Origin: Fusibacter sp. 3D3
GTDB taxonomy: Bacteria > Bacillota > Clostridia > Peptostreptococcales > Acidaminobacteraceae
DNA: 64,000 nucleotides
Assembly: GCF_001748365.1 (NCBI RefSeq)
Contig: NZ_BDHH01000008.1
Coordinates: 81,057-145,056, forward strand
Direction: 5' to 3'
Under the pieces are notes generated by a model. It had not been told where the DNA came from. It did no database searches and saw only the letters and a program-made list of their open reading frames with translations. Positions 4,590 to 42,785 of the stretch are shown in pieces. Positions within the stretch are counted from its first letter, which is position 1. Each line of letters begins with the position of its first letter. The position numbers were made by a program, and so were the translations under genes.

Positions 4590-4770
4590 CATTGTTTGGC
4601 TTGTCGGCAGGTCTCCTGGCTCAGCATCATCACGAATCTTACGCCTTCCCGAGTAAACTCAGTGGCATGTGTAAGTCGCTCCACTTTACAGTGATGGGTT
4701 CGCTTAGGATTTTCACCTAATTCCCTATTCTCCAAAATCATTTGGCACCGCACATGTCGTTTATAGTGTT
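4590..4770 (-). promoter_or_regulatory. Cobalamin (B12) riboswitch
   Basis: Read on the minus strand, this leader contains the conserved B12 box AGGAGACCTGCCGACAAGCC near its 3' end. Further upstream are the other conserved aptamer blocks (GTGCCA, TAGGGAAT and the AGTGGAGCGACTTAC region). A terminator hairpin and then cobT follow. The arrangement matches the canonical class I cobalamin aptamer that lowers expression when adenosylcobalamin binds. The outer boundaries are approximate. Confidence 0.93.
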
Positions 4771-10883: not shown

Positions 10884-10954
10884 CATTGTGATTATGATTG
10901 TTAATCTTCATGGTTTACAAGCTCTATAATATATGCTAATATAATTGAAATATT

Positions 10955-11175
10955 AACCTGTGATGAGAAAAGTACAGACTATGAAGTCCAAGCGAGTGGG
11001 GAATGGTGTGAGCCCATGACTAAAATTTTCTGGAAAAGGGCCTCGGAGGTTGCTTATTGAGCCTAGCAAAATAAGCACGGTAACCCCGTTATAGGTTTCG
11101 AGTGAGTGCTATGCACTAACAAGAGTGGTACCGCGGATAAGCTCCGTCTCTTTTTATGAGACAGGGCTTTTTTTT
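10955..11175 (+). promoter_or_regulatory. T-box leader of argS
   Basis: The stem I start GATGAGAAAAGTA (10962 on) and the T-box sequence AGAGTGGTACCGCGG (11122-11136) are both conserved T-box elements. A terminator AGCTCCGTCTC/GAGACAGGGCT with eight T follows (11140-11175). Uncharged tRNA-Arg should bind and favour the antiterminator. I could not fix the specifier codon by eye; the amino acid is inferred from the downstream gene. TATAAT at 10925-10930 may be the -10 element. Confidence 0.93.
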
Positions 11176-21806: not shown

Positions 21807-22197
21807 ATGATTAAATCATAAGGTTTGAGCCGAAAGACTTGAAGCGGAATGTTCAGCCGCTGAAAGGTGTCAGCGAAAATCGGTTTGAGAGATAGGCCGT
21901 TAGAGTGTCACTTATTTTAATTTCATATTACAAATGATCGAAACCATTGAATCTTTAATTTTAAAAGGATATAATGTAACGCCTTGAGGAGATGTTCCCC
22001 ACTTCTTAAAGTGGGGGGTCCATATTCGTGATCCAGTGGGAGTCCAAACGCCCACTGGATGCAATCCCATAGGATTGCAAGGGTTACGAAGGTAGCGAAT
22101 CGGACTGAGTATACGCTTTGATTTCCGAGTTTATAAAGACGAGGCAACTGACAACTTAATAGGCTAAGATCACATGGATTCAAAAGGAGGCGCCATA
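21807..22197. other. Gene-free region before the helicase gene
   Basis: No coding frame that I trust. It holds a GTTAGAGTGTCA half-site of a dispersed repeat (21900-21911) and the structured repeat at 21997-22113 described separately. The last 80 bp contain the helicase gene's ribosome-binding site (AAAAGGAGG, 22182-22190). No clear -35/-10 pair stands out apart from the AT-rich stretch around 21960-21975 (GGATATAATG). Confidence 0.6.
21997..22113 (+). repeat. Structured dispersed repeat, copy 1
   Basis: Three successive hairpins can be drawn: CCCCACTT/AAGTGGGG (21997-22016), ATCCAGTGGG/CCCACTGGAT (22031-22060), and GCAATCC/GGATTGC. They are followed by the unpaired sequence AAGGGTTACGAAGGTAGCGA and CGGACTGAGTATA. 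From 22031 to 22113 it matches, in reverse complement, the region 41611-41695 with only a few differences. This may be a MITE-like element or the end of an IS200/IS605-type element. No transposase is present. Confidence 0.75.
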
Positions 22198-41550: not shown

Positions 41551-41564
41551 ACAGTGATGTGAGC

Positions 41565-41703
41565 GTTTAGACTCTCACTGGATAGGGAAGATGACCCCAA
41601 GGGACCATCATATACTCAGTCCGCTTCGCTACCTTCGTAACCCTTGCACAATCCTATCGGATTGCATCCAGTGGAAGTTTAGACTCCCACTGGATAGGGA
41701 GAT
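41565..41703 (-). repeat. Structured dispersed repeat, copy 2, with flanking direct repeats
   Basis: The core 41611-41695 is the reverse complement of 22031-22113 with few changes (the same ATCCAGTGG hairpin, GCAATCC hairpin and GGGTTACGAAGGTAGCGA). It lies between two near-identical direct repeats, GTTTAGACTCTCACTGGATA (41568-41587) and GTTTAGACTCCCACTGGATA (41678-41697). On the minus strand the repeat runs into the glycosyltransferase gene and supplies its last codons and stop. Confidence 0.8.
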
Positions 41704-42785
41704 AAAAAGCTTTTAATAAGTTCAAGTGTACTATCTAGTGAAAACGAATCTTTTAATGCAAATACATTTTTGCGTACTTGATCATAGTAAGCGGGATCGT
41801 TGATTAATTGATCGAGTATAAAAGTGAGCTTTTGGCCACTTTCGATTTTAAAGGCAGCCCCTGTACTCAATAAAAAATCTGTATTTTCTGTCTCTTGCCC
41901 TGGCATCGCAAAGGGAATCAAAAGAGGGAGACCTTTGGCGATGGCTTCAGTAGTAGTAAGGCCTCCAGGTTTGGTTAGGATCACATTTGAAGTTTCCATA
42001 AGTGTGTGCACATGATCTGCAAATCCAAAAATTTCATAAAGGCCACTTTCAATCTCGGATTGATATCGTTTTTCAATGGATCTTTTTAATTTTAAGTTGT
42101 TGCCACAGACGACTTTGCAGTGTATGGGTTTTGGATATTGTTTTAAGGTTTCAAGGAGTTCATCCACAAAAGTCAATCCAATACTGCCACTCATAATCAA
42201 CAAGGTGAATATCTTGTCAGCTGGTTTGGATAACGCATAATACGGTGGTGTCAGTGGAATCCCATAATTGTAAACAATAGAGCTCCTTATACCATTTTGA
42301 ACCAAGGCATTTTTTGTAAAGGCAGAGCCCACGATATATGCATTGACTTCAGGGTTGATATAACTTCTATGAACATGAAAATCAGTGACCACAGAAATGT
42401 AAGGGATGCTAATTTGATGATTTGCCTTGAGTTTGCAGATGATGTTGTTGGCAAGTAAGTGAGTGCCTATAATGACATCGGGTTCAAAGCGGTTAATGTG
42501 ATTTAGAAGGCGTGTTTTACCGACGATATTGAAGACACTAGAGACACGGTTATTAATAAGTTTGCGATTACTGATATAATACAAATGTCCAAAGGTTCTT
42601 GGCGATTTTAAGGACATCTGTTTGTAGCTGTTAACGACTAAATAATCCAAAGAACGATTTATTTCTTTCATAAAACTACTCACTTGAACCGTAATGCCAT
42701 TTTTTTCAAGTAGAATTCTTAAATTTTCAGCAGCTTTATCATGACCGCCACCAGTGGATGCTGTCAATATGAGTATTTTGGCCAT
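41679..42785 (-). CDS. MGDG synthase/UgtP-type glycosyltransferase
   Basis: 368 residues. The N-terminal loop is LTASTGGGHDKAAENL and the C-terminal donor region is LTKPGGLTTTEAIAKGLP followed by PFAMPGQETENTDFL. It is closely related to the enzyme at 36928 and, more distantly, to the one at 24632. Its last eight or so residues (SPYPVGV and the stop) are encoded by the dispersed repeat, so its original C-terminus may have been replaced. GGAGG precedes ATG 42785. Expected role: glycosylation of diacylglycerol or a related lipid at the membrane surface. Confidence 0.86.
   Translation of the reverse strand: MAKILILTASTGGGHDKAAENLRILLEKNGITVQVSSFMKEINRSLDYLVVNSYKQMSLKSPRTFGHLYYISNRKLINNRVSSVFNIVGKTRLLNHINRFEPDVIIGTHLLANNIICKLKANHQISIPYISVVTDFHVHRSYINPEVNAYIVGSAFTKNALVQNGIRSSIVYNYGIPLTPPYYALSKPADKIFTLLIMSGSIGLTFVDELLETLKQYPKPIHCKVVCGNNLKLKRSIEKRYQSEIESGLYEIFGFADHVHTLMETSNVILTKPGGLTTTEAIAKGLPLLIPFAMPGQETENTDFLLSTGAAFKIESGQKLTFILDQLINDPAYYDQVRKNVFALKDSFSLDSTLELIKSFLSPYPVGV

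Follow-up and report, generated by a model that had tools for sequence, protein, structure and literature searches.

A structured repeat lies at 22031-22113 of the window (the whole stretch of DNA analysed, 64,000 nucleotides from Fusibacter sp. 3D3), and a similar sequence is found on the complementary strand at 41611-41695. What is this repeat, and does it belong to a mobile element? A first-pass annotation, made from the letters of the sequence, described about 83 bp present twice in inverted orientation, likened it to non-autonomous elements or to the right-end RNA of IS200/IS605 elements, and proposed a search of the genome for further copies and for a matching TnpA or TnpB. Only two copies in the genome, unrelated to any mobile element, would have spoken against it.

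Both stretches are indeed present, with hairpins and a tail in common, and both fold more strongly than shuffled versions of themselves (0/200 and 1/200 shuffles fold equally well). The boundaries of about 83 bp are wrong, since copy 1 occupies 143 bp at 21980-22122; the annotation had caught only its 3' part, consisting of H2, H3 and part of the tail, and had missed the first hairpin and both ends. Two copies are also far too few. In the genome (57 contigs, 5,111,250 bp) the conserved tail or core, GGGTTACGAAGGTAGCGAA, gives 175 matches with up to two mismatches, 95 forward and 80 reverse, and the reversed-pattern control gives none. The left end, TATAACCCTTGAGG, gives 92 matches with up to one mismatch (control 2) and the right end, GAGTATACGCTTTGAT, 147 with up to two mismatches (control 0). 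As the core pattern occurs 175 times and on both strands, the inverted arrangement of the pair in the window has no meaning. The repeat is one of well over 100 copies of a folded mobile DNA element, the commonest length of which is 143 bp (44 copies). Its parts in the window are as follows.

21975-21979, plus strand: the five target bases that adjoin the insertion on its left, TGTAA in copy 1 and TATAA in the F. ferrireducens empty site and the family consensus.
21980-22122, plus strand: copy 1, the full-length element of 143 bp, CGCCTTGAGG...CGCTTTGAT, delimited by the empty orthologous site and the family ends.
21977-21986, plus strand: closing helix P1, 5' strand, TAACgCCTTG, with a bulged G in copy 1; placed by the family structure and absent from the predicted DNA minimum of copy 1.
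22078-22086, plus strand: closing helix P1, 3' strand, CAAGGGTTA, placed by the family structure.
21997-22016, plus strand: core of hairpin H1, from the family structure and the DNA fold; array-type copies have a longer stem.
22031-22060, plus strand: hairpin H2, from the fold and the family structure.
22061-22078, plus strand: hairpin H3, from the fold and the family structure; copy 1 has no linker, the last base of H3 being the first base of the P1 strand.
22087-22122, plus strand: near-invariant tail and right end; GCGnAGC of the family is GCGAATC here, which breaks the mini-hairpin.
41611-41704, minus strand: copy 2, a 5'-truncated element (end of H1, H2, H3 and tail).
41559-41603, minus strand: fragment of a further copy, in which a left-end piece, CCCTTGGGG, is joined to remnants of H1 and H2 (by eye).

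Copy 1 has an aminotransferase gene on one side and a gene for a UvrD-like helicase on the other. Copy 2 contributes the last codons and the stop codon of an open reading frame at 41679-42785 (MGDG_synth/Glyco_tran_28_C). Host genes that take their C-terminal and stop codons from truncated copies were noticed by eye both here, at 41679-41704, and at locus L179.

Insertion is seen at two empty sites. F. ferrireducens (G001) has both neighbour genes of copy 1 and lacks the element; its sequence reads ATATAA and then TTCCTGCG, where the window reads ATGTAA, 143 bp and TTCCGAG. The second empty site is found within the genome itself, as the copy at L061 lies inside the tnpB gene of an IS605 element of which a sibling, at L059, is uninterrupted at the same point; the IS605 copy at L061 also has another deletion. 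At L065 only the right junction can be compared with a sibling, the left flank being unrelated to it. There is no target duplication at either empty site or at the right junction of L065, and the family ends examined have no terminal inverted repeats. The ends of the element are fixed by the two empty sites.

The target was established from 110 left-end-like places in the fetched loci. The 95 with a core downstream were counted, and the other 15 were dropped as chance matches, remnants or cut-short copies. TATAA lies directly 5' of 86 of the 95, a figure biased toward TATAA by the left-end pattern, which itself contains these letters. For 37 loci, retrieved with element DNA or with the tail, a search for the left edge that ignored the target letters placed it in 29 and failed in 8; TATAA precedes 21 of the 29, and several of the other edges follow near variants such as TCTAA, CATAA or TGTAA. 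As the empty sites and this unbiased count agree, the bias leaves the reading unchanged. On the right flank every position carries 0.25 bits or less (88 copies), so there is no preference on that side. The repeat is thus a mobile element that inserts 3' of TATAA and leaves the target unduplicated; dispersed copies, two empty sites, fixed ends and a fixed target support the earlier suggestion of a non-autonomous element. At five loci (L014, L047, L105, L119 and L172) a right end is followed directly by a second left end with no TATAA between them, as the junction of a circle or a dimer would give.

The family structure is a cloverleaf, comprising a closing helix, hairpins H1, H2 and H3, and then the near-invariant tail. 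The closing helix is formed by TAACCCTTG and CAAGGGTTA, and its first three bases are the TAA of the target. The sequence AAGGGTTACGAAGGTAGCGA, described before as single-stranded, is accordingly not simply unpaired in the family, as CAAGGGTTA pairs with TAACCCTTG of the 5' end, but the predicted DNA minimum of the window copy does omit this helix. The structure was compared with an alignment of 30 diverse copies from two species, hand-chosen from 40 representatives of 80 sequences with short or broken copies excluded. Covariation is seen: two-sided changes occur in 26 of the 46 pairs, and versions of the structure slid by one to three columns give 10 at most, a comparison that favours the unslid structure in that it was written from copy L040 (46/46 pairs Watson-Crick), which is itself in the alignment. 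The two-sided changes are stronger evidence than the comparison with the slid versions. Of 1286 cells, 92.8% are paired, and none of 500 shuffles reaches any of the five measures used. Within the closing helix three of the nine pairs show two-sided changes, all outside the target part (e.g. TTG/CAA versus GA/TC and GT/AC), and the last pair fails in 7 of the 30 sequences.

The tail varies freely across the 30 sequences at alignment columns 128 and 133 only, the latter being the N of GCGnAGC; column 132 is changed in three sequences and the remaining columns, the last excepted, in one at most. DNA mini-hairpins with GNA loops are described as exceptionally stable (PMC4686876). The predicted DNA fold of array copy L040 (z -14.9) contains the family structure, two extra H1 pairs and this mini-hairpin; L003 has a predicted z of -9.6, and the window copy, which has lost the mini-hairpin and whose closing helix, with a bulged G, is absent from the predicted minimum, one of -5.5. 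As for a hairpin at each end, H1 lies near the left one, and the right one has no candidates nearby beyond the GCGnAGC mini-hairpin and a weak pairing of AAGCG with CGCTT. No Rfam covariance model matches over its gathering score in the element or related-subfamily loci, and a short reading frame that spans H3 and the tail is not conserved between loci (by eye).

Some copies carry two to six tails in a row. The spacing between tails is mostly 44-69 bp; it is 122-130 bp at L077, L123 and L044, and spacings of 134-143 bp are whole elements in tandem. There are 20 tail clusters among the loci fetched, by a count that gives too few for L040. Within any one locus the stretches between tails are identical or fall into two kinds, and they mostly differ from one locus to the next. 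A CRISPR array was considered and rejected because there is no set of different spacers between the tails; the paper on the genome gives 10 CRISPR repeats, confirmed and questionable together (PMC5525254), some of which might be these tail arrays.

Four element sites are common to Fusibacter sp. 3D3 and F. ferrireducens (L040/L079, L027/L078, L038/L080 and L123/L077), and by eye their neighbours are a WecG-like gene, an ABC transporter ATPase, an amidohydrolase-like gene and rpmA/obgE. The species align well at L040/L079 in the flanks and in the 5' portion of the element, and differ in the array units. As these insertions are common to two species, some of the family is old, and may be retained for a different reason. 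Forms of 62-70 bp that lack H1 and H2 recur (seven copies), which means either that these hairpins are dispensable or that their deletion is recurrent. An identical form of 67 bp, in which H1 and H2 are deleted at a GAT microhomology, was noticed at L016, L104 and L105, and probably reflects recurrent loss of the hairpin block.

The reading that we favour, at a probability of roughly 60%, is that of a non-autonomous element which inserts 3' of TATAA with a fixed orientation, is carried by an enzyme acting in trans and undergoes BOX-like amplification of its tail. The TAA of the target and the CCCTTG of the element would pair with CAAGGGTTA further in and close the three-hairpin junction, a pairing by which the element's own sequence could help to define its left end and target. 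The trans-acting enzyme, an IS200/IS605-like Y1 protein or another, would cut after TATAA and after the right end TTTGAT, the form that moves being most probably the folded single strand of DNA. The arrays would come from multiplication of the tail module, head to tail. The copy number, the arrays, the conserved structure and the insertion with its ends and target are shown by the sequences; the single-stranded route, the enzyme and the guide role of GGGTTA are inferred. Several observations weigh against this reading: none of the Y1 loci scanned is bounded by the element's ends, two relatives with a related subfamily lack a Y1 match, GGGTTA lies 3' of the hairpins, the predicted minimum of copy 1 omits the closing helix, G-U exceeds A-C in the single-core copies, forms without H1 and H2 recur, and some insertions are common to two species.

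A different emphasis is given by supposing that the structure is a domesticated cis-acting RNA, which works in mRNA between genes on stability, attenuation or translation and which mobility has only spread. We regard this as unlikely, though several observations favour it. By crude scoring of longest open frames in the 81 copies flanked by 300 bp or more on each side, both neighbouring genes run in the element's direction in 28 and against it in 4, the remaining 49 being mixed or unscored; the sense bias has a one-sided binomial value of 1e-5. It may, however, stem from the TATAA target itself (in 8 of the 80 copies with TAA at the edge, this TAA terminates a frame of 60 codons or more), from replication, or from the loss of harmful insertions. 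On contigs with both orientations the genes downstream of the minority copies are in sense in 8 cases against 3, of 14, a small sample with too few copies to decide on a replication-strand cause. The four insertions common with F. ferrireducens, such as that between rpmA and obgE, also speak for a cis-acting RNA, but the genes downstream, named by eye, seem unrelated. The base pairs point both ways. In the 16 single-core copies G-U pairs (38 cells) exceed A-C (20), whereas the 14 copies with at least two cores have 91.3% Watson-Crick cells and almost as many A-C cells (11) as G-U (13). As a constraint on RNA should clearly favour G-U, we infer for the latter group a constraint on (single-stranded) DNA or palindrome repair during replication; the signal in the single-core copies is less clear. 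Insertion from RNA, as a retroposed (SINE-like) element, would be consistent with ten copies, among the loci read, that are truncated at the 5' end and keep the right end intact, one of them only 18 bp long. These copies do not follow TATAA, and for that reason look like deletions from the left flank; 3'-truncated copies exist too (L120, L143 and L155). Retroposition is very improbable.

It is also conceivable, but quite doubtful, that the element is purely the ends of an IS200/IS605 element (a PATE) whose transposase is still in the genome. The absence of terminal inverted repeats and duplication, the position 3' of a pentanucleotide and the hairpin near the left end all fit, and Fusibacter sp. 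3D3 has 26 Y1_Tnp matches, with 13 TnpB-type matches besides. Against it, neither the ends nor the targets of the three multi-copy Y1 element groups are those of the element. The target of the genome's IS605 is TTTAA(C) and its right end GTATGTCAC (five copies, by eye), and the ends of two IS200-like groups differ from the element's again. The 5.5-kb stretches around two RAYT-like genes contain no copies of the element. The IS605, IS200 and RAYT-like loci of the genome were thus rejected as the source, their ends being mismatched. All 26 Y1 and 13 TnpB-type loci, some of the former cut by contig ends, were scanned for the left end, the core and the right end, and none is bounded by the ends of the element, so that the search for a matching TnpA or TnpB gave no candidate; copies of the element do lie near or inside several of these loci, as insertions or fragments. 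In eight relatives 52 Y1 matches were listed, and a scan of the loci of 30 of them, mostly some 3 kb long, gave no copy of the element. The genome of one relative (G071) has 25 Y1 matches; many of them sit in frames of 250-330 aa, and many are RAYT-like. Viral contigs contain no relative of the 296-aa RAYT-like protein. The mobiliser may be a Y1 protein that works in trans, an enzyme of another kind, or one since lost.

The comparison with right-end or guide RNAs fared less well than that with non-autonomous elements. In the TnpB omega-RNA and the right end of IS605 elements, hairpins are followed by conserved sequence, and the element is alike in this respect. It differs in that the right ends of the genome's IS605 are different and no TnpB-type match lies on the window's contig. 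The annotation was correct that the window has no transposase or TnpB (0/26 Y1 and 0/13 TnpB-type matches on this contig). A TnpB guide RNA was rejected on the same count, and on the finding that none of the 13 TnpB-type matches ends in the element; IS200/IS605 right-end or guide RNA is left unsupported by the differing IS605 ends and by the scan of the Y1 and TnpB-type loci. The sequences between tails, of one or two kinds per array, do not form a set of guides either.

Several known families resemble the element in part. PATEs are described as lacking inverted repeats and duplication, inserting 3' of a specific pentanucleotide and having an end hairpin (PMC7290912). The element shares these features of sequence and target, with its hairpin near the left end, but has three hairpins inside a closing helix, and no parent insertion sequence with its ends was found (among 26 Y1 loci of its own and 30 of 52 in relatives). 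In IS200/IS605 elements the guides are reported to be located 5' of the hairpins (PMC8266576), whereas the candidate guide GGGTTA lies 3' of them, where on inspection the TAA of the target pairs with TTA. REPs and REPINs are dispersed palindromes for which movement in single-stranded form by a trans-acting Y1 protein, RAYT or TnpA-REP, is proposed (PMC8266576). The element likewise consists of dispersed palindromes; unlike them it is much larger, has defined ends and a target, and has no copies next to the genome's two RAYT-like genes. BOX elements of Streptococcus pneumoniae are presented as small, dispersed, structured and modular, with a variable tandem inner module and a position near genes, and as having terminal inverted repeats and target duplications (PMC3049150). 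The element is also small, dispersed, structured and near genes, with a variable number of tandem inner modules, but it has neither terminal inverted repeats nor a target duplication, and its repeated unit includes locus-specific sequence. It is thus PATE-like in target and lack of duplication and BOX-like in modularity; because one defining feature of PATEs and one of BOX are each missing, we call it a new family of small non-autonomous mobile elements. In the open-access full text, with the search terms used, no paper was recognised that describes such a repeat.

The element occurs in two of the three genomes of the genus Fusibacter. Exact pattern searches of named genomes recovered the Fusibacter core only in F. 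ferrireducens, and a model of the element matches 10 of the 393 genomes of the order, strongly only in the two Fusibacter. This model includes TATAA, so its matches are no test of the target. The other eight genomes match weakly (best E per genome 7e-8 to 2e-4), and some of the weakest matches may be chance. Most belong to a related subfamily of the form TATAA|CTAAATTAAG-H1-H2-CGTTGAATGACGGGCAAAGCCCTTATT or similar. Its tail, searched as a pattern without TATAA, is present in 6 of the 393 genomes, in 36, 10, 3, 2, 1 and 1 copies (control 0). The left edge region of the 25 such copies that have at least 90 bases upstream in the fetched loci has TATAA in 20, TATAG in 2 and neither in 3. Judged by these sequences, other families of the order carry a related subfamily that uses the same target. 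Two of the genomes with this subfamily, G169 and G363, have no Y1 match (96% and 92% complete). Phage and plasmid records contain no match for one related-subfamily copy, and viral contigs none for its tail; they contain a single match for the Fusibacter core (L241). By eye, L189/L267 and L243/L250 are related-subfamily copies at apparently the same gene junctions in different genera, and the copy at L267 has lost H1 and H2.

A bolder extension, which we put forward as speculative and rather unlikely, is a superfamily of cloverleaf single-stranded DNA elements in several families of the order, each with its own target-pairing strand (GGGTTA versus TAACCC), moved by an enzyme other than Y1, with tail arrays that are actively rebuilt at fixed intergenic sites.

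Should the favoured reading of a trans-mobilised element hold, this would be a family of small, abundant and strongly structured mobile elements that insert by a sharp rule and have no visible enzyme. Two subfamilies with a common target and fold across families of the order would make the mobiliser traceable by co-occurrence, and the putative guide could be tested by changing one short strand. The arrays would offer a natural system for the multiplication of tail modules. Because it inserts at TATAA, in some cases at a stop codon and for the most part in the direction in which the genes are transcribed, the element would probably give rise to new untranslated regions and protein tails.

Other structured features share the window. 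A second interspersed structured repeat, TTTGAGCCGAAAG...GTCAGCGAAAATCGGTTTGAG..., lies at 21822-21905, just upstream of copy 1; it has many matches in F. ferrireducens, partly in tandem, and copies with the ends TTTGAGCC/GGCTCAAA are found, for example, in L089 and L091. A cobalamin riboswitch (4590-4767, minus strand) and a T-box leader (10951-11154, plus strand) both score over their Rfam gathering thresholds.
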